The notes under the pieces: model-generated
What the model was told of the DNA's origin: nothing
The model's input: the letters and a program-made list of their open reading frames with translations, nothing else
Database searches by the model: none
Shown: one piece after another, positions 16,444 through 31,195 of the stretch
How positions within the stretch are numbered: position 1 is the first letter of the stretch
Layout: the number at the start of each line of letters is the position of its first letter
Source of the DNA: an uncultured Chthonomonas sp.
GTDB taxonomy: Bacteria > Armatimonadota > Chthonomonadetes > Chthonomonadales > CAJBBX01
DNA: 32,814 bases
Reading direction: 5' to 3'
Assembly: GCA_903885605.1 (NCBI GenBank)
Contig: CAISJD010000106.1
Coordinates: 1 to 32,814, forward strand
Program-made: the position numbers and the translations under genes

Positions 16444-17420
16444 AGGTCTGCCTCCTCGGCGCGAACGCTAATGCGCCGCGCCTTGCCGGACGGCTCCGGC
16501 CTCCCCTTTCGGGCCCGGCAAGGCGTCCACGAGGCCGGGCCGGCGCCCGACGCACCCACCGTCACCGTCAGCACGCCCGTACCGAACGTGGCTGTGTTGC
16601 GGGCGTCGAACACGAAATTGCCGAGGGAGTATGCCACCAGCGACCGCCTGCCTGTTCGCCCGGACGCCACCCATGCCGCCGGCTGCAGGACGTGCGGATG
16701 GTGCCCCAGCACCACGTCGGCGCCCGCGTCGGCGGCCACCTTCGCCAGCCGACGCTGGGCGGCATTAGGCCGCGTGCGGTACTCGTCGCCCCAATGGAAC
16801 GAGGCGACGACCACGTCGGCGACCCGTCCAGCGCCCCCTACGGCTGCCCGCACGTTCTCATCCGATGCGTACGCGACGGTCGGGCGCGTGGCGTCGAGCA
16901 TGGACGTCTCGGCGGCGAAACGGCTGAAGCCCACGAACGCAACACGCACCCCTCGAACCGTGACCACGTGCGGCCGCAGCGCCTCCTCCAGCGTGGCGCC
17001 GGCGCCGCACCAGCCGATCCCCCGCTGCCGCAACCAGGCCATGGTGTGCAGCAGTCCGCGCCGACCGCAGTCCAGCGTATGGTTGTTGGCCAGCGACACC
17101 ACGCGGATGCCGGCCCACTCCAACGCCTCGGCGTGCGCCGGCCTGGCCCGAAAACAGAAGAGCTTGGGCGTCCGCTCCGCCGTAGCCGAAATCGGGCACT
17201 CCAGATTGGCGAAGCCGATGTCGGCAGCGGTGAGAACGCCGCGCACCTTGGCCCACGGGTAGGTCGCTCCCCGGCGCCTGATGCGCAACGCCACGCCGCG
17301 GTCGAGCATCACGTCTCCCACGGCGGCGACGGTCACCGTGCCGGGCGGGGCGCACAGGGCCGCCGATGGCTGCAAGAGCATCCAGGCGACCGGCAGCGTC
17401 AGCGCGAACCGAGGCGTCAA
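16440..17420 (-). CDS. CapA-family (PGA_cap) metallophosphoesterase-like protein, exported
   Basis: About 326 residues. The frame carries the full set of PGA_cap motifs: VAAVGDVMLDRGV, GFANLECPIS, VSLANNHTLDCG, ASFHWGDEY, LGHHPHVLQP and VAYSLGNFVFD. The Asp, Asn and His residues expected to bind metal in this calcineurin-like fold are present. No ATG fits. TTG 17420 overlaps the DUF3160 stop (TTGA); GTG 17423 is the alternative. A signal peptide follows (FALTLPVAWMLLQPSAALC). CapA proteins take part in poly-gamma-glutamate capsule formation, but no capB or capC is present here, and many lone homologues have unknown roles. It overlaps the methyltransferase gene by 4 nt. Confidence 0.88.
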   Translation of the reverse strand: MTPRFALTLPVAWMLLQPSAALCAPPGTVTVAAVGDVMLDRGVALRIRRRGATYPWAKVRGVLTAADIGFANLECPISATAERTPKLFCFRARPAHAEALEWAGIRVVSLANNHTLDCGRRGLLHTMAWLRQRGIGWCGAGATLEEALRPHVVTVRGVRVAFVGFSRFAAETSMLDATRPTVAYASDENVRAAVGGAGRVADVVVASFHWGDEYRTRPNAAQRRLAKVAADAGADVVLGHHPHVLQPAAWVASGRTGRRSLVAYSLGNFVFDARNTATFGTGVLTVTVGASGAGPASWTPCRARKGRPEPSGKARRISVRAEEADL

Positions 17421-19591
17421 CACCCGCTGGAGTATCCCTGCAGCTCCGCACCCGTAGCGGGCTTCACGGGGGTCAGGAAGCTCCGTGTCCACGCGGGCGG
17501 CACGGGCGCCTTCCCGGCCTTCAGCAGGTCGCGCCACCCGGCGTCCGTGAGGCGCTCGGAAGCCGGTTGCTTGAACTCATGGAAGCTGAAGGTCGCTCCC
17601 CGCGTCAGGGTCAGCTTGCCGCCCACACGAACGATGACGAGGATTTCGTGGGCCCTGCCGACACCTACCTCCAGGCAGAGGTCGGAGGCCGTATGCACGT
17701 CGGCCACCACGGCCATGTCGCGGTCCGCCTCGTCCACGAGGTCCCAGGTGTTGGGCGCGTTGTCCACGGTGGCCAGGGTCAGCATCTCGCACTTGGCGCC
17801 GATGTACTTGATCTCGAGGTACTCGGCCTCTGTGAGGGCCTGGTTGCGCAGCTCCTTCAGCGAGCAGGCGCGAAGGAACCGGACCAGCGACTCGAACTCG
17901 CCGAACCGGTCGCGCAGCCTTTCCGGCATAAGCTTCCGCCGCTCCAGGCCCTGCCGCGTCTGAGTGAGCAGGGCGGCAAGACGATCATAGAGCGGAACGT
18001 TGGGCTCCACGTAGCCCTTCGGCAGCTTCTCCTCCTCGCCGCCGCCACACTCCACGGCGCTCTGCTTGCCGTAGAGGATCGTATCGTGGCGAAGCTCGGC
18101 CCAGGAGCCCAGCGCCGTGTATAGCGATCGGTCGGCCCAGGCGGAGCCCTGCATGAACGAAGGGTAGCCCGCAGGAACGGGGCGCGTCACCTCGCGGAGG
18201 CAGTCAAGCCAGCTCCAGTAGAGCGACGAGGACCAGCGGGCGGGCGGGACGGCGGCGAACTCGGCGATGAGCTTGGCCCGCTCGGCATCGTAGGGCTTCC
18301 ATCCGTTGGTATTGAACGTCTTGGGATCGGCCCGGATGATCGCCTCGGCGCGCGGGCTCCCCAACACGGCCATCACGTCCATCCCGCAGGGGAATGGGCG
18401 CTCGATGGGTGCGCAGAGGCGCTGCATGGCGTCGCTGTCGGGGATGTACCGTTGGCCCATGACACGCATCTGCAGGTCCGGGTCGGGGTACGGCGGCGAC
18501 AGCTCCATGCGGGCGCGGATGCCGGGCCGACGCAGGGCGCCCACCGCGGTCCGCACCTTGGAGAGCGCCTCTGGCGACGCGTAGGCAGCGACCGCGTGCC
18601 CCTTCCCCAGCGCACGTCCTGCGGCGGCGGCGACCTCGGCGGGCGTCAGGTCATCGGCGGTGTTCACGTAGAACGAGGTGGGCTCGTAGACGCGCTGCCA
18701 GAGCGCGGTGGCCCTGGGAGCGGTCAGTGTACGGGAGAGGAGCAAGGCCTGGCGCAAGGGACCGTCGGCAGGGCTCTTATCGGAGAACTGCGGGGCGAAC
18801 GGGGCCAAGCCCAGCCACATCATGGCGCGGAAGTAGCGTTTCAGCCGATCCGACCGGGTGTAGTGGCCGCGCGGCACGAACTGCGAATAGTCCATCTTGT
18901 AGGGCAGGATGGCGCCCACGGCCCACCCCTCGTGCGCATCGATGAGGCGTAGCTCGCGGGCAACCATGGCGTCGGCGCCGGGCGGCAGGGCGGGGCTTCT
19001 GCCCAGCAGGCGGGCTGTCACCCCGGCGAAGGCCACGTTGCGCAGGGCGGCGTCCCGTATTACAGGCTCCCGTGCGCCGCGGAGCTGGGCCAGAGAGCCG
19101 CGGTGCATCTCGTCGGCCAACTGCCGCAGGGCCGGCACGAGGGACTCGGCCTCCACCGTGCGGAGCGTGTAGCCATAGAAGACATGGAAGAGCTGCAGCA
19201 CCAGGTCCACCGTGACGAACGAGGGCAGGTCCAGGTAATCGTTATTCTCGTAGACCTGGAAGAGCTGCTTGTGGTCCGTGGAGCGGCAGGCGAAGAGGTT
19301 CCGCGCCAAATGTGCGCGCACGGCGGGCTCCAGGTTCAGCGGGCGGTACTGCCCCAGGTTTGAGACCTCCTTCAGCGATGCACTCACGCGGTAGGGCTTC
19401 AATGAGGCCGGATACCGGGGCGCCACGGGCTTAGCGACGACCTTCGGCGGCGGCTGCGGCGCGGCAGGTCGGGCGGCCTGGGCGCGGGACGGCGGCAAGC
19501 GCCTCTCCGCGCGCGCCATGGGGGCTTCCTGGCGCGAACAACCCCCTGCAAGGAGCAGCAGGGCAACGGCCACGGCTGTGATGCGATGCAT
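17417..19591 (-). CDS. DUF3160 lipoprotein
   Basis: A 724-residue protein with signal sequence ITAVAVALLLLAGGC and a lipobox-like cysteine at residue 18, then an Ala/Pro-rich linker to about residue 60. The rest matches the DUF3160 type: NNDYLDLPSFVTVDLVLQL near the N-terminus, SFYVNTADDLTPAEVAAAA in the middle, VMGQRYIPDSDAM, the long helical middle, and TVDNAPNTWDLVDEADRDMA with VADVHTASDLCLEVGVGRA near the end. The function of DUF3160 is unknown. GGGAGGT stands before the ATG. It is flanked at 4 nt by the small exported protein and overlaps the CapA gene, so it is part of a tight operon of envelope proteins. Confidence 0.9.
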   Translation of the reverse strand: MHRITAVAVALLLLAGGCSRQEAPMARAERRLPPSRAQAARPAAPQPPPKVVAKPVAPRYPASLKPYRVSASLKEVSNLGQYRPLNLEPAVRAHLARNLFACRSTDHKQLFQVYENNDYLDLPSFVTVDLVLQLFHVFYGYTLRTVEAESLVPALRQLADEMHRGSLAQLRGAREPVIRDAALRNVAFAGVTARLLGRSPALPPGADAMVARELRLIDAHEGWAVGAILPYKMDYSQFVPRGHYTRSDRLKRYFRAMMWLGLAPFAPQFSDKSPADGPLRQALLLSRTLTAPRATALWQRVYEPTSFYVNTADDLTPAEVAAAAGRALGKGHAVAAYASPEALSKVRTAVGALRRPGIRARMELSPPYPDPDLQMRVMGQRYIPDSDAMQRLCAPIERPFPCGMDVMAVLGSPRAEAIIRADPKTFNTNGWKPYDAERAKLIAEFAAVPPARWSSSLYWSWLDCLREVTRPVPAGYPSFMQGSAWADRSLYTALGSWAELRHDTILYGKQSAVECGGGEEEKLPKGYVEPNVPLYDRLAALLTQTRQGLERRKLMPERLRDRFGEFESLVRFLRACSLKELRNQALTEAEYLEIKYIGAKCEMLTLATVDNAPNTWDLVDEADRDMAVVADVHTASDLCLEVGVGRAHEILVIVRVGGKLTLTRGATFSFHEFKQPASERLTDAGWRDLLKAGKAPVPPAWTRSFLTPVKPATGAELQGYSSGC

Positions 19592-20190: not shown

Positions 20191-21126
20191 CTACCGGCTC
20201 GGCGCGGCGCGGCGGAGGCTCCAGATGGTGGTCAGGGTCTGGCTATCCCCCGGCTGCAGCAGGCGAACCGGGCCGAGGAGCTCGAGCTCCATGTACTTCA
20301 GCGGATCCGGCGAGGAGAAGATCTCCTGCGGGCATCCGCCGTCGGGGTAGCCGCCCTCCGGCTCGACCGTCGCCCGGAGCGTGAGCTCCCACGCGCCTAC
20401 CCGCGCTCGAACGAGGCCGTGCGGCGACCAGCCGCCGATCTTCGCCGCCTTGGCGGCGTGGCGGCGGAGGCGAACCGAACCAGGCCGGGCGGCGACATAG
20501 CCGGCCTGCGGGACGTTGGGCCCGATGGCAGTCCAGCCTTTCGGCAGGCCGGCGGAGGCGACGATGGGCATCTCGCACCAACGCGGCTCGGCGACCTGGG
20601 CCACTTCCCAGACGCTCCACTCCACGTCCTGGTCGCCGGTGTTCAGCATGGTGTTGCGGATCGTGACCGATCCGTCCGCGGCGTCCATGGTGATGACGCG
20701 CTCGAACCGGATGCCGGAGTTGGGGCTGGCGGCGCTGACCAGACGCACCGAGCCGCCCTTCAGCGCCGTCGCCGTATGCCCGATGCCGTCAAGGTATGGG
20801 TCGGGCGGCCAGTTCCACTTGCTCTGCGGCGCGGGCCAGAGCTTGTCGCCGCCGAAGTTGGCCCACTCCTTGCGCCCCTGGGCTAGGGTCACCGTCTTGC
20901 CGCGGAGGCCGGCCTGCTCCCAGAGCAGGTTCGGCCCCGCGGCAGGACCGTAGTAGACGATGCGGCCGATGGCAGGCGCCACGACCAGGCTCACCTTGCC
21001 GTTGCTGATCCGATAGCAGCCCGGCCACCCCTGGGTTGCCTCGCGCCGCACCGAAACGACCGGCGCGGCGTGGGCTTGCATGGACGCCAGAACCGCCACC
21101 AGCGCCACCGCCGCCGGAGCCTTCAT
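20191..21126 (-). CDS. DUF4380 family protein, exported, mutarotase-like fold likely
   Basis: The protein is 311 residues from ATG 21126, 2 nt after the stop of the upstream gene; longer in-frame forms only read back through that gene. Residues 1-20 are a signal peptide (APAAVALVAVLASMQAHA). It then shows VSLVVAPAIGRIVYYG, WANFGGDKLWPAPQSKWNWP and FERVITMDAADGSVTIRNT, typical of DUF4380 proteins, which look like galactose-mutarotase/aldose-1-epimerase-fold carbohydrate-binding proteins. The end is a beta-strand-rich SQTLTTIWSLRR. Its sugar-binding role is inferred from fold similarity; no catalytic activity can be assigned. Confidence 0.85.
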   Translation of the reverse strand: MKAPAAVALVAVLASMQAHAAPVVSVRREATQGWPGCYRISNGKVSLVVAPAIGRIVYYGPAAGPNLLWEQAGLRGKTVTLAQGRKEWANFGGDKLWPAPQSKWNWPPDPYLDGIGHTATALKGGSVRLVSAASPNSGIRFERVITMDAADGSVTIRNTMLNTGDQDVEWSVWEVAQVAEPRWCEMPIVASAGLPKGWTAIGPNVPQAGYVAARPGSVRLRRHAAKAAKIGGWSPHGLVRARVGAWELTLRATVEPEGGYPDGGCPQEIFSSPDPLKYMELELLGPVRLLQPGDSQTLTTIWSLRRAAPSR

Positions 21127-21128
21127 GG

Positions 21129-22667
21129 CTAGAACTGCGTCCCGCGTTGGCCGCCCGGGCCGCCGAAGCTCGGCGGCCCCGGCATGGACGATGGGCCGCC
21201 GAAGCCGGGTCGGCTGCCGAACGGCGATCCGGTGCTGAAGCCGGGGCCGCCCAACTGCCCCCGCGCCCGCTGGCGGGCCACGGTGAAGACCGGGAAGAGG
21301 ATCGCGGCCACTAGCGCGCAACAGACGATGCCGGGAAGGAAGATGGCCCCTACGGCGCCGCCGGTGGTGATGGCCTGCATCTCCCGAAGGAAGATGATCG
21401 TCAGTACGAGCGACCAGATGCCGACAATTACGCTGACGATCATCTGGACGGGAGCCAGCGCGGGCACGAACGCAGTCAGCAGGCCCACAGGGGCGGCGAT
21501 CACACCGGGGACGGAAGCGTACACCATTGCGCGGAAGGTGGCGTTGTAGCCTCGACGGCCGCCGAACATCATGACGAAGAGGTGCGTGATGCCGACGCCG
21601 ATGAACTCGCCGATAATGCCGAACGGAATGCCGAGGATGACCATGGCCGCGATGCCGACCGCTCCGCTGACACCCATCATGGAAGCGAGTTGGTTCTGGC
21701 TTCCCATACCGCTCATCGCGCCGCCGGTCGTGTTGGCGCCGCCGCCCGTGGCCATCCCGATGCCCGCGCCCACCGCCATGATCGCCATCTGCACGGCGAG
21801 CACGATCACCAGGAAGACCAGCGGAGCGCCCAGATCGGTCCAGCCCAGGTTGTCGCGACCGAAACCGGTGGGGTCCGCGATGATGCGCTTCACGGCATCG
21901 ATGCTGAACTTGCCGGGATCGTCTCCCACACCGGGCTGCGCCCCGCCGGGCATGGCGCTGTACGTTGAAGCGTACGGCCCGCCGGCAGGCGGAGCCGGGC
22001 GGGCGTATCCACCTGACCCTCCAGGCGGCGGCGGGGGCGGCTGGTGACCCGGCGGCGGCGGCTGGTATCCCTGTTGTTGGCCGGGCGGCGGGTAGGCCGT
22101 CGATCCCGGGCCGCCGGAACCGGGGAACGCCTGTGCGCTCTGGGTCGGTAGCGGGTTCCCGGCCAGGTCGGTCATCGGATGGGCCGGCGCGGCGCCGGCT
22201 CCTCCGATCGGATTGCCGGCCAGGTCCACGCGCTGCGTCTGCCCGGGCTGGGCGGCCGGCTGCCCGTAGGGGCTGGGAGCCTGCGCAGGCGCCGCGGCGC
22301 GGCTACGCAGCGATGCCAGGGCTCGGCTCACCTTCTCGTTGGCGGGGTCCACCTGGGCCGCCCGCTCCAACTCGGCGATCGCCTCAGGCGTGCGGCCGCT
22401 GCGGTCCAGCGCCACAGCAAGGTTGAAACGCACATCAATGCTGTCGGGCAGCATCCGCGCGGCATCCTGCAAGTGCCGCACGCCCTCGTCGAAGTTGCCC
22501 TTGCGCGAGAAAGCCACCCCCAGCATCTGGGCGGCTTCCGCAGAGTGCGCGTCCATATGGAGCGCATCCTGGAAGAGGCCGATCGCGTCGTCGATCCGGC
22601 CCTCCTGCAGGCATCGACGCCCTGCCAAGATGCAGCCCCCGGCATCCATCGGAAGCGAACCACTCAT
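21129..22667 (-). CDS. TPR and Yip1-like integral membrane protein with Pro/Gly linker
   Basis: A 512-residue protein. GAGGAG lies 8 nt before ATG 22667, and an in-frame extension to 22763 lacks support. Residues about 8-120 hold tetratricopeptide repeats, including AGRRCLQEGRIDDAIGLFQD, AAQMLGVAFSRKGNFDEGV and NLAVALDRSGRTPEAIAELE. A linker rich in Pro, Gly and Gln contains two DLAGNP copies and proline runs. The C-terminal half is a Yip1-type domain of about five membrane segments (LVFLVIVLAVQMAIMAVGAG, GIAAMVILGIPFGIIGEFIG and later ones), ending in a Gly/Pro/Phe-rich tail. The last membrane segment reads ALVAAILFPVFTVARQRAR. Yip1-type domains in bacteria have no settled function. It is the first gene of a tight operon leading to DUF4380. 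Confidence 0.82.
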   Translation of the reverse strand: MSGSLPMDAGGCILAGRRCLQEGRIDDAIGLFQDALHMDAHSAEAAQMLGVAFSRKGNFDEGVRHLQDAARMLPDSIDVRFNLAVALDRSGRTPEAIAELERAAQVDPANEKVSRALASLRSRAAAPAQAPSPYGQPAAQPGQTQRVDLAGNPIGGAGAAPAHPMTDLAGNPLPTQSAQAFPGSGGPGSTAYPPPGQQQGYQPPPPGHQPPPPPPGGSGGYARPAPPAGGPYASTYSAMPGGAQPGVGDDPGKFSIDAVKRIIADPTGFGRDNLGWTDLGAPLVFLVIVLAVQMAIMAVGAGIGMATGGGANTTGGAMSGMGSQNQLASMMGVSGAVGIAAMVILGIPFGIIGEFIGVGITHLFVMMFGGRRGYNATFRAMVYASVPGVIAAPVGLLTAFVPALAPVQMIVSVIVGIWSLVLTIIFLREMQAITTGGAVGAIFLPGIVCCALVAAILFPVFTVARQRARGQLGGPGFSTGSPFGSRPGFGGPSSMPGPPSFGGPGGQRGTQF

Positions 22668-22726
22668 CGAGGAACTCCTCTCCCCATCCGTGGAAGCGCC
22701 TGCCCGACTTGCGCCTCTCGTTGTAG

Positions 22727-22732
22727 AGTATA
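22727..22732 (-). promoter_or_regulatory. Possible -10 box for the TPR/Yip1 operon
   Basis: On the minus strand this reads TATACT, five of six matches to the sigma-70 type -10 consensus. It lies about 60 nt before the ATG at 22667 in the 150-nt gap behind the thioredoxin-like gene. No convincing -35 lies 16-18 nt upstream, so it is a weak candidate. Confidence 0.3.
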
Positions 22733-22802
22733 CGGCGCGCGGCTCAGGATCTCCTCTCGGCACACAGGCAATGGGTCTTCGCCCGAGGTCGAACGGTAAC
22801 TC

Positions 22803-22815
22803 GCGGCCGAGCCGC
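22803..22815 (-). terminator. Short GC hairpin after the thioredoxin-like gene
   Basis: GCGGC and GCCGC form a 5-bp stem with a 3-nt loop, starting about 3 nt after the stop of the thioredoxin-like gene. No T-run follows, so termination is only suggested by position. Confidence 0.25.
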
Positions 22816-22817
22816 CG

Positions 22818-23291
22818 CTACGATGCCGGAGGCGCCAGGCAAGCTACCAGCCACCGCCGAACCTCGGCCGACGGCAGGTAGCCCTGGCGCAGCTTGGTCT
22901 CGTGGCCGCCGATGTGCAGCACCAACATCGGCTGCGGATCGGCCTCGTACATCTTAACGAGGTCCGCGAAGCGTGCGGCATCCACCGTGACGATCAGGAT
23001 CTTGCCCGCGTCGATGGCCGCAAGAGCCTTCAACTCGGCCAGCAGACGGTCAGACGGATCGTCCTGGGGCTTCAGGTAGGCAGCCAGCACCGGGCCGCCG
23101 GCGTTGGCAAGCAGGCGCAGGTACCCGAACTTCGCCTCCACGGCCATCGGTGCATCGGGCGGCGGCAGGGGCTTGCGGCACTTGCCGCAGGTGGCCTCGC
23201 CGGACATGCGCTCATACGCCACCCGATTGCGCTGGCCGCACAGCCTGCACGGACCCACGACGCCCTGGTCATCCAGTATGAAATCGGCCAC
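22818..23291 (-). CDS. Zinc-ribbon thioredoxin-2-like protein lacking the redox CxxC
   Basis: A 157-residue protein starting from GTG 23291, with GGGAGGGG well placed upstream. The N-terminal zinc ribbon has C15-x-x-C18 and C35-x-x-C38 (CRLCGQRNRV, then CGKCRKPLP), the exact layout and wording of thioredoxin 2 (TrxC). The rest has the thioredoxin strand and helix rhythm: GGPVLAAYL, then GKILIVTVDA, then the cis-Pro-like PQPMLVLHIGG, then a last helix SAEVRRWLVACL. The active-site position that would hold WCGPC reads LKPQDDPSD, with no cysteine. It therefore cannot be a normal disulfide reductase and may instead bind a partner. The zinc-ribbon assignment is strong, the fold assignment fairly strong, the role unknown. 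It is divergent from ispG. Confidence 0.75.
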   Translation of the reverse strand: MADFILDDQGVVGPCRLCGQRNRVAYERMSGEATCGKCRKPLPPPDAPMAVEAKFGYLRLLANAGGPVLAAYLKPQDDPSDRLLAELKALAAIDAGKILIVTVDAARFADLVKMYEADPQPMLVLHIGGHETKLRQGYLPSAEVRRWLVACLAPPAS

Positions 23292-23455
23292 AAAACCCCT
23301 CCCGCACCGACGACGCTCTCCCGGTCATACCCAGCGTATACCCCATGGCGGCTCGCGTGTCCAACCTGGAGATGGAACTCGGCGGCGCACGATAAGGGTA
23401 CTCTTCACCGATGCGGCGGCGTAGGGCCGCGGGTCCGAACTGCGGGAGATTCGCC
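23292..23455. promoter_or_regulatory. Divergent intergenic region between thioredoxin-like gene and ispG
   Basis: This 164-nt region must hold promoters for both directions. Seen on the right are TACTCT near 23399 and the ispG ribosome binding site GGGAG (23443-23447). On the left is a near-dyad ggtcatac/gtatacc around 23323-23342, whose minus strand offers TATGAC and TATACG as weak -10-like boxes. No clear -35 and no riboswitch-like structure were found. Confidence 0.35.
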
Positions 23456-24721
23456 ATGCTTGAGCCCACCTACTGTCGCAGACGCACACGCCCCGTCTCC
23501 GTGGGACCCATCACCATCGGCGGGGACGCACCCGTGGTGGTGCAATCCATGATCACCGAGGAGACGCACAACGTCGCCGGAGCGGTGCGGCAGATTGTGG
23601 CAATGCACAGGGCAGGCTCTGAGATCGTGCGCGTGACCACGCCGAACCTGCAGGAGGCGCGTTGCCTGGGCGAGATCAAGGCCGAACTGCGGCGCGCCTA
23701 CCAGGATGTACCGCTGGTGGCCGATGTCCACCACCAGGGCACGGAGATCGCCGTGGAGGTAGCGCGGCACGTCGACAAGGTGCGCATCAACCCGGGGCTC
23801 TTCGTCTTCCGCAAGCCCGTCCAGCGGACGGAGGAGTACTCGCAGGACGAGATCGACGCCGAACTGGAGGCCATCGACCGGGAGCTCAAGCCCGTACTCA
23901 AGGCCTGCGCGGACCATGGCGCCGCCATGCGGATCGGTGTGAACCACGGTAGCCTCTCGGAGCGCCTGCTGGTGACCTACGGCGACACTCCCGAGGGCAT
24001 GGTGGAGAGCGCCATGGAATACATTCAGATCTGCCGGGCCAACGGTTACCATGACCTGGTGGTCTCGCTGAAGGCGAGCCGTGTCCCGGTCATGCTGGCC
24101 GCCAACCGGCTCATGGCCACGCGGATGGACGCGGCGGGCATGCACTACCCGCTCCACCTCGGCGTCACGGAGGCCGGCGACGGCCAGTACGCCCGGGTCA
24201 AGAGCACGGCGGGCATCGCTACGCTGCTTGCCGAGGGCATCGGCGACACGATCCGCGTCTCTCTCTCCGAGGATCCCGTCCGCGAGTTGCCCGTCTGCTA
24301 CGAGATCCTGCAGGCGCTGGGCCTACGGAAGACCCGCGTGGAGTTCGTCGCCTGCCCCGGCTGCGGCCGCACCAAGTTTGACCTGCCCACGGTCCTGGCC
24401 GAGGTCCGAGCCGCCACGGAGCACCTTGTCGGCCTCGACATCGCCGTCATGGGCTGCATTGTGAACGGACCGGGAGAGATGGCGGACGCCGACTACGGAT
24501 ATGTAGGCAAGAGCGGCGGCAAAGTGTCGCTCTACCGCAAACGGACCGAGGTGCGGACGGGTATACCGCAGGAGCGAGGCGTGGCGGAGCTGGTTGCGCT
24601 CATCAGGGCCGATGGCCGATGGACGGAGCCGCCCACACCCGCACAGGCCCAGACTGACCGCACGTATGGCCGACGCATCGGCGAAGCGCCCGGCGCCGCC
24701 GCAGGAGGAGAGACCCGATGA
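23456..24721 (+). CDS. ispG: 4-hydroxy-3-methylbut-2-enyl diphosphate synthase
   Basis: The 421-residue protein starts at ATG 23456 with GGGAG before it; an upstream in-frame ATG at 23411 lacks such a site. The enzyme makes HMBPP from methylerythritol cyclodiphosphate in the MEP isoprenoid pathway. Iron-sulfur ligands are present: C300 and C303 in [12 protein letters not shown]334 in GCIVNGPGE, with E341 the fourth ligand as in E. coli. The TIM-barrel part holds [23 protein letters not shown] and VRINPGLF. It has an extra segment of about 30 residues after INPGLF and the [20 protein letters not shown] motif found in the cyanobacterial and plant-like group, but not the large inserted domain of chloroplast or chlamydial forms. 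It overlaps sucC by ATGA. Confidence 0.97.
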
Positions 24722-25872: not shown

Positions 25873-25910
25873 GCGCGGCGCCCGCCGCCGGACATGCAAG
25901 GATGCAACAC

Positions 25911-27365
25911 ATGGAAGACCTGACGCCGCGGCAGATCGTGGCCGAGCTCGACAAGTTCATCGTGGGCCAGGGAGACGCCAAGAGGGCCGTGGCCGTGGCG
26001 CTGCGCAACCGATGGCGCCGGCGCATGCTGGACGACGACCTGCGCGACGAGGTCATCCCCAAGAACATACTGATGATCGGGCCCACTGGCGTCGGCAAGA
26101 CCGAGATCGCCCGGAGGCTGGCGGCGCTGGCGGCGGCTCCCTTCATCAAGGTCGAGGCCACCAAGTTCACCGAGGTAGGTTACGTAGGCCGGGATGTGGA
26201 CTCAATCGTCCGCGACCTGGCCCAGACCTCCTACCGCATGGTGGAGGCCGAGAAGATGGCCGAGGTGCAGGGCCGCGCCGAGGAGCAGGCGATTGACCGC
26301 ATCGTCGAGATTCTGCAGCCCATGCCCGGATCGCGGCGCCGCAGGGGTGACGAGCAGCGCGCCAACGAGAAGTTCATGCACGCGCTGGGCAGTATCTTCG
26401 GCTCAGGCGGCCCGACGCAGCCGCCGACCCCTGAAAAGAAGGAGCCGGACGACGACGCCGAGGAGCAGCAGAGGCGCGAGAGGTGCCTCAGGATCCGCAC
26501 CAAGCTGCGAGAGCAGATCGCCGCCGGCCTCAAGGACGACGACCCCATCACCATCGAGACCGAGCAGTCGCAGGGCCCCATGATGCAGGTCCTCACGCCG
26601 CAGGGCATGGACGAGATGGGCATGGACCTGCAGAGCGCCCTCGGCAACATGATGAACAAGGGCAAGAAGAGCCGCAAGGTGACCATCGGCGAGGCCCGCA
26701 AGCTCCTGGCGCAGGACGAGGCCCGGAGCCTCATCGACACCGACGCGGTGCAGCGCGAGGCGATCGACCGGGCGGAGCAGAGCGGCATCGTCTTCATCGA
26801 CGAGCTGGACAAGATCGCCGGAAGGGGTGGCCATGGCGGCCCCGACGTCTCGCGAGAGGGCGTCCAGCGCGACCTGCTGCCCATCATCGAGGGCTCCACA
26901 GTCACCACGAAGTACGGCCCGCTCCGCACCGACCACGTGCTCTTCATCGGAGCCGGGGCCTTCAGCGTCGCGCGGCCGTCCGACCTGATCCCCGAGCTGC
27001 AGGGCCGCATGCCCATCCGAGTGGAACTGGAGAGCCTCACCGAGGCTGACTTCGTGCGCATCCTCACCGAGCCGCGCAACTCGCTCACGCGGCAATACAC
27101 GGCGCTCCTCGCCACCGAGGGTATCACGCTGGAGTTCGGCGACGACGCCATCGCCGAGCTGGCCCGCGTGGCCGACCAGGTAAACCGGACCAGCGAGAAC
27201 ATCGGCGCCCGGCGGCTCCATACGGTCATGGAGCGACTGCTGGAGGATGTCTCGTTCAACGCGCCGGACCTGGAGGAGCGAGCCCTGGCCCTGGACGCGG
27301 CCTATGTTCGCGGCAAACTCAACGACATCGCCAAGGATGAAGACCTGACCAAGTATATCCTGTAG
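25911..27365 (+). CDS. hslU: ATP-dependent protease ATPase subunit HslU
   Basis: A 484-residue AAA+ unfoldase. ATG 25911 ([20 protein letters not shown]) is preferred to ATG 25902 because AAGGA is well spaced only for the former. Walker A is GPTGVGKT (57-64), Walker B is VFIDELDK near residue 293, and the second-region arginine stretch [18 protein letters not shown] is intact. The intermediate domain (about residues 110-270) is longer than in E. coli, with a Glu/Asp-rich linker. The C-terminus DLTKYIL matches the tail that docks into HslV. With HslV it would form a proteasome-like protease, but hslV is not adjacent. It lies 38 nt after sucC and 35 nt before the hydrolase gene. Confidence 0.96.
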
Positions 27366-27400: not shown

Positions 27401-28903
27401 ATGGCAGCCATCGATCCCCGACACGTGATCCACCTTCAGAACGGGCACTTCACGCCTCATACCCAGACGCGCGCCACGGACCTGGACGCACTGCTCGATA
27501 CGTTCGACGCCGCCCGATCCCCCTCGGGCCTGGCCATCCACCTCCACGGCGGCCTGGTCTCCTACTCCGCCGCTTTGGAGATCGTCAGGGACCTGCAGCC
27601 GAAGTACACCGATGCAGACGCCTACCCGGTCTTCGTGGTATGGGAGTCGGGGCCGTTCGAGACGCTGATGAACAACCTGCAGGACATCGGCAAGACCGAC
27701 CTCTTTCGCGAGATGCTCCGGAAGCTGGCCGAGTGGGCGCTGAAGAGCCTGGGAGACGCCGTGGGCCTGCGAGGCGGCGGCCCGGCCCCGGTGGACCCAC
27801 AGGCCGTGGCCGATGCCCTGGACGCCTGGCACGCCGATCCCAGTGGCGGCGTGCCGTTCGTCGAGCTTGAGCTTCGCCTTGCGGGCGCCGATGCTCGGGC
27901 CGCCTCCCTCAGCCCTGACGCCATGCTCACGGAGCTGGAGGCCGACCTGGAGACCGACTTCAGGCTCACCGACGCCGTGCGCAACATACCATCCGGTGAA
28001 GCCGCCCGCTTGCGTGCCGCGGGCGTGGACCTCTTCGACGACGGTGGCCCCGGCGGACGCGGGTTCGTCTCCACGGCCAAGGCCGCGGTGTTCCTCGCCA
28101 AGCTCACGGTGGCTGTCGGCAGGAGGCTACTCAACGGGCGCGGCCACGGCCTCTTCGGCACCGTCATCGAGGAGCTGTACCGGGCCTTCGGCCTTGCCCG
28201 CGCGGGCAAGGAGTGGCTCTGGGAGCAGATGAAGCTCGACACCGAGCAGGCCTGCCGCGACGACCAGAAGCCGGGCAACGAGGCCGGCCTCACCGCGCTC
28301 CTGACGCGCATGGGCGCCCGGTACCCGGACCCGGCGCAGGCGCCACGCGTCACCCTCATCGACCACTCCACCGGGGGTGTCTACATCTGCCACATCCTGG
28401 ACGCGGCGGCCCGCCACGCCCCGGCGCTGACCTTCGATCTGGCGCTGCTGGCACCGGCATGCACCACCTCGCTCTTCAGGCGCGCCTACGATGCCCATCG
28501 GCAGCGCATCCGAGGAGTGCGTGTCTTCGGCATGAAGGACGCCGTGGAACGCGCGGATGCCATGGCCGAGCCCGTCATCGGCCCGGCGGGGCGCGCCCTC
28601 TACCCGCACTCGCTCCTCTACTGCGTGTCGGGCATCCTTGAGCCCGAGGTCGACACGCCGCTGCTGGGTATGCAGCGCTTCCTGATCGAAGAGGAGACCT
28701 TCGACGCGGCCCACTTCCCGGATGTTGCGTGGGCGCGCAAGGAGATCGGCTCGACAGGCGCCGTGGCCGCGGTCTGGTCCGAGCAGGTCGGAGTGCCGGG
28801 CTACGAGTCCCGGTCAAAGCGCCACGGCGACTTCGATGACGAGACGGTGACCATCAGCAGCGTGGCCCACATCTTGAAACACGGTATTGCGCCACGGCCA
28901 TGA
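27401..28903 (+). CDS. Alpha/beta-hydrolase-like protein of the caspase cassette
   Basis: A 500-residue protein with GAGGAGG before the ATG and no signal peptide. Strand and oxyanion motif IHLHGGLVS (47-55) and the nucleophile-elbow-like LIDHSTGGVYICHIL (319-333, Ser323) point to an alpha/beta hydrolase. The elbow is DHSTGG, not the usual GHSxGG. Between them lies a long, mostly helical region of about 200 residues, which would form an unusually large lid or insert. Following strands are FDLALLAPA and IRGVRVFGM. A candidate catalytic His is H475 in RHGDFDDET, near the C-terminus. The substrate (ester, lipid or amide) is not apparent. Its stop overlaps the caspase start by ATGA, so the two are probably made and act together. 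Close relatives were not recognised by name. Confidence 0.7.
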   Translation: MAAIDPRHVIHLQNGHFTPHTQTRATDLDALLDTFDAARSPSGLAIHLHGGLVSYSAALEIVRDLQPKYTDADAYPVFVVWESGPFETLMNNLQDIGKTDLFREMLRKLAEWALKSLGDAVGLRGGGPAPVDPQAVADALDAWHADPSGGVPFVELELRLAGADARAASLSPDAMLTELEADLETDFRLTDAVRNIPSGEAARLRAAGVDLFDDGGPGGRGFVSTAKAAVFLAKLTVAVGRRLLNGRGHGLFGTVIEELYRAFGLARAGKEWLWEQMKLDTEQACRDDQKPGNEAGLTALLTRMGARYPDPAQAPRVTLIDHSTGGVYICHILDAAARHAPALTFDLALLAPACTTSLFRRAYDAHRQRIRGVRVFGMKDAVERADAMAEPVIGPAGRALYPHSLLYCVSGILEPEVDTPLLGMQRFLIEEETFDAAHFPDVAWARKEIGSTGAVAAVWSEQVGVPGYESRSKRHGDFDDETVTISSVAHILKHGIAPRP

Positions 28904-29931
28904 CCGACTACGCCATCGTGGTGGGCATCGACCTCTACCCGGGCATCTCGCCGCTCGAAGGGGCCCAGCGCGACGCGGACGAGTTCGCCGCGTGGTTGAC
29001 GCTGCCGGAGGGCGGCGGAGTGGACCCGGCCAACGTGGTGCGGCTCACCACCGCCCGCTTCCATCCCCCGCTCCCGGCGCGCGCCTCCCAGGCGCAGCCG
29101 ACCGCCGACCAGTTCCGCGACACATTCATCGAGATCTTTACGGACGATAACGGACGAGTGCGGCCGCCGGCGGGACGGCGGCTTACCCTCTACTTCAGCG
29201 GCCACGGGTTCATGGGCAACACCACGGCCATCGAGCGGGCCATCTACTCGGCCAATGCCACGACGCTGGCCCCGGACCACATCGCCGCCACCCGGTACGC
29301 CAACTGGGCCGTCCGCGCGGGCCTGTTCGACGAGATGGTGCTGATCTGCGACGCCTGCGCCGACCTGTCGCTGACGACCAGCATCGCCGAACCGATCCTG
29401 ATGCCGCTCGTCAACGCGGCTCGAGCCGCCCGGGTGCGGACCTTCTACGCCTACGCGTCGCCTGCCGGAGCCAAGGCCCGCGAGAAGCCGCTGGGCGCCG
29501 ACAAGCAGGTGCGCGGCATCTTCAGCTACCTCCTCCTCGAGGCGTTGCGACAGGCCCCCGGCGCCGACGACGGCTGCGTCATGGCCACGCACGTCCGCGA
29601 CTACATCCACAACGCGTGGCCCGAGACCGCCGGGGCGGACATCCTGCCGCCGACCATCGCCGTGGAGCCGGCGCGCGACCTTCTGATGGCGCGCAGGCCG
29701 CCCACCGACAAGCAGCCCGCCACCACCGTGACCATCACGGCCGTCGGAGCTGGATCGGCGGAGCTCGTGGTCCTGGGCGGCAACGGCAAGGCGTGCCGGA
29801 CCGCCGCTCTGACCGACGGTCAGGCCGAGGTGTCGCTGCCCGCGGGGCTCTACAAGGCCGTCGTGCAGGGCACAGCCCGCTCAACGCTCTTCCAGGCCAT
29901 CGGGGAGGTGACCCGTGTCGATATCCCGTAA
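28900..29931 (+). CDS. Caspase-family (peptidase C14-like) protease
   Basis: A 343-residue protein. Residues 1-240 form a caspase p20-like domain: YAIVVGIDLYPGISPLEGA at the start, the catalytic His102 in LYFSGHGF, and the catalytic Cys153 in LICDACADLS, the DxC form of metacaspases and orthocaspases. Acidic residues around these suggest an Arg/Lys or other basic P1 pocket, which is not certain. Residues about 275-343 are a small beta-rich domain (VTITAVGAG, LPAGLYKAVVQG). No signal peptide or membrane segment is seen. It overlaps the hydrolase gene by 4 nt and the next gene by 17 nt. Bacterial caspase-like proteases may act in regulated cell death, stress responses or effector activation. 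The partner proteins here could be its substrates or activators, which is inference. Confidence 0.88.
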   Translation: MTDYAIVVGIDLYPGISPLEGAQRDADEFAAWLTLPEGGGVDPANVVRLTTARFHPPLPARASQAQPTADQFRDTFIEIFTDDNGRVRPPAGRRLTLYFSGHGFMGNTTAIERAIYSANATTLAPDHIAATRYANWAVRAGLFDEMVLICDACADLSLTTSIAEPILMPLVNAARAARVRTFYAYASPAGAKAREKPLGADKQVRGIFSYLLLEALRQAPGADDGCVMATHVRDYIHNAWPETAGADILPPTIAVEPARDLLMARRPPTDKQPATTVTITAVGAGSAELVVLGGNGKACRTAALTDGQAEVSLPAGLYKAVVQGTARSTLFQAIGEVTRVDIP

Positions 29932-31195
29932 TCGGAAGGCCCCGCTCCGCGTAACCGCCGCCGAGGAGGCCACGGAGATCTTCGTCATCGACTCGTCCCT
30001 GAGCCGTGTGGCGTCGGGAATGGGCTCTCTGGATGTGAAGGTTCGGCCGGGCATCTACAAGGTGCGCCTGCGCTCCGGCGCCTCCATGGAGGATACGCTG
30101 GTCGAGGTGCAGGAGGGCGACGGGGCCACCGTGGCGCCGCGCGCGATCGCGTTCGACAGCGCGGCGCCGTTGCACGGCACCCTCACCACGCACGAGCCCC
30201 ACCAGGCCGCCTGGGCAAGGGCATCCGAGCCTCCCAGCCTCCACTGGGGAACCGGCGCAGGGCTCTTCGTAATGGTACGCGACCCCGCCATCGTGCGGGG
30301 CAAGGAGAGCCGCACGGAGCCCTGGGCGGGCATCACGGTGCAGGACGCCGAGGGCCGCACGCTCGGCGCCATGGACAAGGATGGCGAACGGATGCAGGAG
30401 GTCGGCGTCGGCTGGCTCCACGCCGAGGCCGACCCCGGCATGCACCTGATCTGCGTGGACACCGGCCTGAGGGGCGTCCAGTGCATGGCCGTGCACCTCA
30501 GCCGCGGCTGGCAGACGCAGGTGATCCTCGCCACCGCAACGGTCATGCGCAGCCGGGTCGCCGGCGAGCGGGAGGACGGACCCGCGACGCTGCGGCGATC
30601 CTTGCGCCGGGCAGTGCCGGCCGATGCCGCGATCTTCTATGCGAGGCCGGGCGGGGCTCAGGATCCGGCGCAGGCCCAGGAGTTGCTGCGGCTCACGGAG
30701 CTCGTCCGCCAGGGCCTGACGCAGGGCCGTCCCACAGCGCCGCTGGCCGAGGTGAAGAGCGGCCGATGGAGCGCCACGGGCAACCCCATGCTGGCCCTGC
30801 TGACGGGCTACGTGGAAGCGGCCAAGCCCAAGCCGGACGCCAGGCTCCTGCGGTCGTTGGCCGGGGAGCTTGCCGCCGAGCTGCCCGGCCATCCGGACGT
30901 GCTGGCCCTGCACCTGCTGGCCGGCGGCAGCCTCACACCCAGGCGGAAGGGCGTCTCGACGATCACCTACCCCGCCCAGTGGGTGGCGCCGAACCCGGAC
31001 GACCCGGCCGGAAGGCCACAGCTGCTCCAGCCGCCGATGCTGGCCGCCGGCCTGCCCGCGTTGCTGGGCGCCATGGACCCCGCGCCGGGCAGCCTTGTCC
31101 AGCGCATCAAGGAGAGCCTGCTTCCGGGCGCGCCGTGGCTCGTCTGGCGCCGGACCGCTGCCACGCGGATGCGGTCGGCCCAGTCCGCTCGTTAG
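29915..31195 (+). CDS. Unknown partner protein of the caspase cassette
   Basis: A 426-residue protein starting at GTG 29915, with GAGGTG 5 nt upstream inside the caspase gene. Function not recognised. Residues about 10-75 form a beta-rich domain (LDVKVRPGIYKVRLRSGA) that lines up with the caspase C-terminus. Residues about 80-215 are another beta-rich region with LFVMVRDPA, AGITVQDAEG and ILATATVM. The rest is mostly helical, with GNPMLALLTGY near residue 290 and LPGHPDVLALHLLAGG near residue 330, which looks like a helical repeat or scaffold. No transmembrane segment or catalytic motif is seen. The gene order suggests a regulator, sensor or adaptor for the protease or hydrolase. Confidence 0.72.
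   Translation: MSISRNRKAPLRVTAAEEATEIFVIDSSLSRVASGMGSLDVKVRPGIYKVRLRSGASMEDTLVEVQEGDGATVAPRAIAFDSAAPLHGTLTTHEPHQAAWARASEPPSLHWGTGAGLFVMVRDPAIVRGKESRTEPWAGITVQDAEGRTLGAMDKDGERMQEVGVGWLHAEADPGMHLICVDTGLRGVQCMAVHLSRGWQTQVILATATVMRSRVAGEREDGPATLRRSLRRAVPADAAIFYARPGGAQDPAQAQELLRLTELVRQGLTQGRPTAPLAEVKSGRWSATGNPMLALLTGYVEAAKPKPDARLLRSLAGELAAELPGHPDVLALHLLAGGSLTPRRKGVSTITYPAQWVAPNPDDPAGRPQLLQPPMLAAGLPALLGAMDPAPGSLVQRIKESLLPGAPWLVWRRTAATRMRSAQSAR

Follow-up and report, generated by a model that had tools for sequence, protein, structure and literature searches.

A thioredoxin 2-like protein that carries the zinc ribbon and lacks the CxxC active site in one genus of Chthonomonadales (Armatimonadota)

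Proteins that combine a thioredoxin fold with the lack of a functional CxxC are already known. Examples are CnoX (YbbN) of E. coli and domains b and b' of PDI, which belong to a multi-domain human enzyme; to our knowledge, neither CnoX nor these PDI domains carry a zinc ribbon, unlike the protein described here. The PDI domains have been described as inactive thioredoxin domains (PMC9352907), and in CnoX a thioredoxin domain with the motif SXXC, which shows no oxidoreductase activity, is joined to TPRs (PMC6282202). As for thioredoxin 2 (TrxC), a review of Deinococcus thiol reductases reports that Cys-to-Ser changes in the zinc ribbon impaired the reduction capacity of the intact protein, and proposes a possible signalling role for the zinc that TrxC releases during oxidative stress (PMC8945050). 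A four-cysteine zinc ribbon is also found in Ruc (Rv0991c) of M. tuberculosis, which is described as losing its zinc on oxidation to become a chaperone, and as disordered outside the ribbon (PMC7448276). Besides, Salmonella thioredoxin has been reported to dock response regulators via a surface near the active site that is dispensable for reductase activity (PMC9584953). A TrxC with the ribbon kept and the reductase site lost did not turn up among the listed titles and starts of abstracts of the open-licence literature, preprints aside.

In the current study, we analysed a window of 32,814 nucleotides from an uncultured Chthonomonas sp. (contig CAISJD010000106.1), which contains a TrxC-like gene without the CxxC motif. 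A sequence-only reading had placed this gene at 22818-23291; the coordinates are correct, and the coding strand is the minus strand. The gene and its parts are the following:

22818..23291, minus strand: CxxC-less TrxC-like gene, 157 amino acids, GTG start; orthologues L027 and L026
23296..23303, minus strand: ribosome-binding-site-like GGGAGGGG, 4 bases before the GTG
23178..23249, minus strand: zinc ribbon, residues 15-38, C15-x2-C18 ... C35-x2-C38; Pfam PF21352 at residues 15-39
22833..23150, minus strand: predicted thioredoxin-like domain, residues 48-153, from hhalign, profile scores and an AF2 model
23049..23075, minus strand: former active-site loop LKPQDDPSD, residues 73-81, with C32 replaced by D77 and C35 by S80

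The genus comprises three draft genomes in the set searched, namely that of the window (G000), G001 and G002, and the gene is present in all three, together with a G-rich stretch ahead of its start codon. The orthologue in G001 (L027, CAJBBX010000040.1; uncultured Chthonomonas sp.) is 94% identical to the window protein, and the one in G002 (L026, JAPLCQ010000143.1; Armatimonadetes bacterium, isolate LacPavin) is 87% identical.

TrxC (NF008229) was the sole NCBIfam match of the window protein at E values up to 1 (39.8 bits, E 3.3e-10, residues 15-150), a score that does not reach the equivalog cut-off of 125 bits. The Pfam thioredoxin matches were also weak and below cut-off (Thioredoxin_6, E 0.0017; PF00085, E 0.04), and the closest solved structure by sequence was 7ysi, a thioredoxin 2 (E 2.1e-6). 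Residue numbers and roles below are those of E. coli thioredoxin, which we take as commonly given, placed by the WCGPC anchor. Compared with TrxC (PDB 2ppt, 7ysi, 3p2a, 7d6l), the CxxC-less protein has the same two-CxxC ribbon with its CGQxNR wording, a thioredoxin domain that aligns without gaps and the cis-proline, and both its best sequence match and its top Foldseek matches are TrxC proteins. It differs from them in having no WCGPC, D26, W28, W31 or K57. As an enzyme, the protein would thus fall outside TrxC on account of the missing WCGPC and the NCBIfam score, whereas its descent from TrxC appears well supported.

The ribbon is that of thioredoxin 2, as had been proposed from the letters: both CxxC pairs are present (C15-x2-C18 and C35-x2-C38), and so is the NRV wording (N22-R23-V24). 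The Zn_ribbon_Thio2 model (PF21352) gave 25 bits (E 1.7e-5) on the window protein, narrowly missing the cut-off of 27.1, and the same ribbon scored 28.3 bits in the genome search, above that cut-off. All four ribbon cysteines are invariant in the 15 aligned rows (3 CxxC-less and 12 intact proteins), and they are the only cysteines common to the three CxxC-less orthologues, C151 being Ser in G001.

The C-terminal part also matches thioredoxin 2. With hhalign, the three CxxC-less proteins aligned to a profile built from 10 of the 12 intact TrxC proteins of Armatimonadota over 153 columns including the ribbon (probability 99.8, E 6.5e-29), and the thioredoxin half alone scored 35.8-39.8 bits against the same profile (39.8 for the window protein), compared with 6.3 for the best of 1000 shuffles. 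An AlphaFold2 prediction from the three orthologues only was poor and unusable (pLDDT 48.5), its best PDB match being a weak one to TrxC 3p2a (E 8.2e-3). After adding 47 thioredoxin rows from viral contigs to the alignment, the pLDDT rose to 84.3 with a pTM of 0.82, and the predicted fold matched thioredoxin, with TrxC structures ranking first in Foldseek (2ppt_A, E 8.8e-11). The top VIA-align match was 2ppt_B (Z 15.8, rmsd 2.8, with 130 aligned residues between positions 6 and 153); ordinary thioredoxins tie with the TrxC entries within 1 Z but span the second domain only. Since the added rows are themselves thioredoxins, this steered model shows sequence and fold to be compatible without independently proving the fold, and it is in this predictive sense that a thioredoxin fold follows the ribbon.

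Within this domain, the redox site does read LKPQDDPSD at residues 73-81, and LKPQDDPS sits where the intact TrxC copies mostly have WAPWCGPC. The loop is PQDDPSD in the window protein and PNDDASD and PGDDASD in the other two orthologues; thus, the WCGPC that all 12 intact TrxC proteins of the phylum share is replaced by QDDPS, NDDAS or GDDAS in 3 of 3 orthologues. The loss extends beyond the two cysteines: D26, W28, A29, W31, C32, G33, C35, P40 and K57 are invariant in all 12 intact proteins and changed in all three CxxC-less ones, P34 is altered in two of the three, and the basic residue 36 has become Asp in each of them. In thioredoxins, the buried D26-K57 pair tunes the catalytic cysteine, and because this pair went together with both cysteines, the loss of the reductase site appears thorough. 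On the other side of the fold's record, the cis-proline is retained, preceded by Gln and not Ile, and the later G137 and P140 (window protein numbering) are kept in all 15 rows. D77, D78, S80 and D81 do not differ between the three orthologues, in contrast to the variable residues 76 and 79. This is a hint that the loop has been put to a new use, although three sequences cannot prove it. A sequencing or frame error concealing WCGPC, which the sequence-only reading had named as one of two findings that would overturn it, can be ruled out: the homologues do not restore WCGPC, the three genomes searched in the genus all show the CxxC loss, which a misread base would not explain, and no gap interrupts the alignment to intact TrxC at the site. 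The other finding, a C-terminal part that does not fold as thioredoxin, is not borne out by the profiles or by the steered model.

An intact TrxC with WAPWCGPC is encoded elsewhere in the window's genome (G000:C201:16032-16478), and G001 and G002 have intact copies too. Further thioredoxin-domain matches occur in the window's genome, the strongest of them TrxA-like (contig C11, 111.3 bits), as well as a thioredoxin reductase on contig C198 (357.3 bits, cut-off 343.45). With the intact TrxC, other thioredoxins and thioredoxin reductase present, the loss of the active site in one protein need not cost the cell its reductase.

The search of 291 Armatimonadota genomes (E up to 1e-5) gave 15 matches in 12 genomes, 3 of them CxxC-less and 12 intact, and all CxxC-less proteins came from a single genus. 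In the same 291 genomes, the ribbon family had matches at E up to 0.01 in 38 genomes, 15 of them over the cut-off. No additional CxxC-less TrxC was seen among the 30 ribbon loci listed, as read by a script with a strict pattern that missed loci at contig ends, of which those of G067 and G031 were recovered separately. A scan of genome contigs with patterns from the three close orthologues returned two loci, both of the same genus, and a viral scan with a mixed alignment returned no relative. Of the 157 plasmid records recovered, none reached 60% identity; the 20 that were listed are 24-28% identical, and the features named there are trxC, trxA or Trx-GI. Judged from these sequences, the CxxC-less protein, or pseudo-TrxC, is real and conserved, and in the genomes and collections searched it occurs in one genus only (three draft genomes).

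In the tree, the CxxC-less clade groups with the TrxC of G020, a member of another family of the order (96/93). Holding the clade sister to the genus's own intact TrxC was weakly rejected (p-AU 0.035), the branch being long, the tested groups having been picked after the first tree was seen, and G031 having been omitted as a long row. The description of the protein as a paralogue therefore stands as far as a separate intact TrxC exists in the genome, but it is not evidently a recent duplicate of the genome's own TrxC, and such a recent duplication is not favoured by the G020 grouping and the p-AU value. Following the tree placement, the CxxC-less copy may be an old or acquired TrxC line.

Judged from substitution ratios, the CxxC-less gene is evidently under purifying selection. 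Its dN/dS values for the three pairs of genomes are 0.071, 0.142 and 0.142 (dS about 0.5). The intact TrxC of these genomes gives nearby values (0.117, 0.098 and 0.106), and the ratios of ispG and the DUF3160 gene are 0.054 and 0.116. A pseudogene is rejected on the range of 0.07-0.14. The surroundings are also stable, as 14 of the 14 neighbouring genes tested matched in the same order in G001 and G002.

The explanation we favour for the pseudo-TrxC, with somewhat better than even confidence, is that of a selected, non-catalytic descendant of thioredoxin 2 which would work by binding a client. This supports the sequence-only reading of a redox-dead paralogue, whose binding or sensing role stays putative. 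Given that neither the active-site cysteines nor the helper residues remain, the protein is probably unable to reduce disulfides as thioredoxin does. Instead, its thioredoxin fold, with the cis-proline kept and the loop remade into an acidic xDDxSD turn, would dock on a client protein, as expected of an adaptor or holdase, and the ribbon, together with its single zinc ion, might provide a rigid second contact or an anchor. The chemical work would be left to the intact TrxC, TrxA and thioredoxin reductase. The docking of response regulators by Salmonella thioredoxin offers a background for such a role (PMC9584953); the clients of ordinary thioredoxin need not be clients here, because the docking surface is altered by the loss of W31 and by the Gln before the cis-proline. 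It is also not obvious that the ribbon should outlast the reductase, since the ribbon cysteines are reported to support reductase activity in intact TrxC (PMC8945050). The locus can be seen as a natural experiment separating the two halves of TrxC, in which selection keeps what the ribbon and the fold do without thiol chemistry, and a comparison of the two paralogues in one genome would make the purpose of the TrxC zinc ribbon directly testable.

As a tentative alternative, the protein could be a zinc-held redox or zinc sensor, in which an oxidant would convert the ribbon cysteines to disulfides, zinc would leave, and client binding would be switched on, as in Hsp33 and Ruc, or a partner would be released. 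The pseudo-TrxC resembles these proteins in having four cysteines expected to hold one zinc and no other conserved thiol, and both the oxidation-dependent chaperone activity described for Ruc (PMC7448276) and the zinc signal proposed for Deinococcus TrxC (PMC8945050) would give such a sensor precedents. Between G001 and G002, residues 2-47 show 0 nonsynonymous and 5 synonymous changes. On the other hand, 4.5 nonsynonymous changes separate G000 from G001 as well as from G002 over the same residues, where dS is low (0.14-0.31), so that these counts do not set the ribbon apart as specially constrained; the regional dN/dS is 0-0.11 for residues 15-47 and 0.06-0.17 for residues 48-157, both being noisy. 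The intact TrxC proteins retain the four ribbon cysteines just as well, so these cysteines may be purely structural. Besides, Ruc is described as disordered beyond its ribbon (PMC7448276), where the CxxC-less protein has a domain predicted to fold like thioredoxin. The names Hsp33 and Ruc were absent from the matches at E up to 1 in Pfam and NCBIfam, two collections that possibly have no model for these families. A more elaborate form of the sensor, which we consider rather doubtful, is that the reductase domain has turned into a client- or metal-binding module with its acidic xDDxSD turn, leaving the ribbon as the sole redox-sensitive element of a sensor that sits beside the intact copy. If true, this more elaborate form would define a new class of pseudoenzyme.

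A further explanation involves the gene that follows on the same strand:

21129..22667, minus strand: gene for a protein with TPR repeats and a Yip1 membrane domain (Pfam), the next same-strand gene, 150 bp downstream

The two neighbours could represent a CnoX/YbbN-like chaperedoxin split over two genes, with the CxxC-less thioredoxin acting together with the TPR protein. This agrees with the fusion of a CxxC-less, non-reducing thioredoxin domain to TPRs in E. coli CnoX (PMC6282202), with the match of the steered model to the YbbN structure 3qou (E 6.7e-7, rank 15 in Foldseek) and with the arrangement in all three genomes, in which the TPR-Yip1 gene has the same ATG and lies 150-152 bp from the CxxC-less gene. 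We nevertheless regard it as improbable. In contrast to CnoX, the pseudo-TrxC has no TPR in its own chain (no TPR match in the 157 residues of the window protein, Pfam, E up to 1) and no conserved extra cysteine: the WCxxC/SXXC motif of CnoX is DDPS or DDAS here, and its second conserved cysteine has no counterpart, C151 being absent in G001. The TPR gene, for its part, has a Yip1 membrane domain and is separated by the 150-bp gap with its own conserved TATAC box. The long TPR-Yip1 relatives of another genus (L054 and L055) gave no tblastn match to the CxxC-less gene alongside, in flanks of up to 1.5 kb, of which just 236 bases lie upstream of L055. Outside the genus, both parts of the TPR-Yip1 protein are spanned by one match each in G009 and G011 only, among the matches listed for 31 genomes of the order.

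That some unusual chemistry remains, with the ribbon cysteines or the acidic DDxSD loop catalysing a reaction or binding another metal, seems to us hardly probable either; the constant D77, D78, S80 and D81 between the variable positions 76 and 79 would suit it, but this pattern comes from three sequences, and no thioredoxin-fold enzyme with such a loop was among the matches listed. Finally, a decaying duplicate heading for loss, or an assembly artefact, is largely refuted and very improbable, as the very long branch relative to the intact TrxC proteins and the occurrence in one genus out of 291 phylum genomes stand against dN/dS values of 0.07-0.14 over three pairs at a dS of about 0.5 and against the fact that three separate assemblies preserve the open frame and the synteny.

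The genomic neighbourhood gives no functional link for the pseudo-TrxC. Its divergent neighbour, already recognised from the sequence, is constant in the genus:

23411..24721, plus strand: ispG, divergent neighbour (TIGR00612, 471.9 bits, cut-off 280.25)

The distance between ispG and the CxxC-less gene is 119 bp in the window and about 120 bp in G001 and G002. For the other nine family genomes, tblastn against the available stretches of the ispG loci (L071-L079, of which several are truncated by the end of a contig) gave no relative of the CxxC-less gene, so that the adjacency says nothing firm about its function. A scan of these nine loci for the C..C-C..C pattern returned short frames in L071 (88 aa) and L078 (95 aa), which by eye look like chance and are unlike TrxC.

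Beyond the TPR-Yip1 gene, the minus strand continues with a DUF4380 gene, a gene without a Pfam match and a DUF3160 gene. The DUF3160 (17417-19591) and DUF4380 (20191-21321) proteins, both on the minus strand, belong to families of unknown function and are kept in the genus. A GTATAC box lies upstream of both the TPR-Yip1 gene (in the intergenic stretch 22669-22817) and the CxxC-less gene (in the intergenic stretch 23292-23410) and is conserved in the three genomes by eye; a consensus scan of the surroundings found neither promoter nor terminator. The plus strand runs from ispG to sucC and hslU, the last of which (25902-27365) we take to be hslU-like from its sequence. No hslV was noticed beside it, and hslV is located on another contig of the window's genome (G000:C82:5841-6353). 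The sucC gene also adjoins hslU in three of the nine other ispG loci of the family (L071, L073 and L076). Further along the plus strand, a caspase-domain protein is encoded at 28900-29931 (Pfam Peptidase_C14, E 3.1e-6), flanked by two genes (27401-28903 and 29915-31195) without a Pfam match at E up to 1e-5; the frames of these three genes overlap by a few bases, and each of the genes is retained in G000, G001 and G002.
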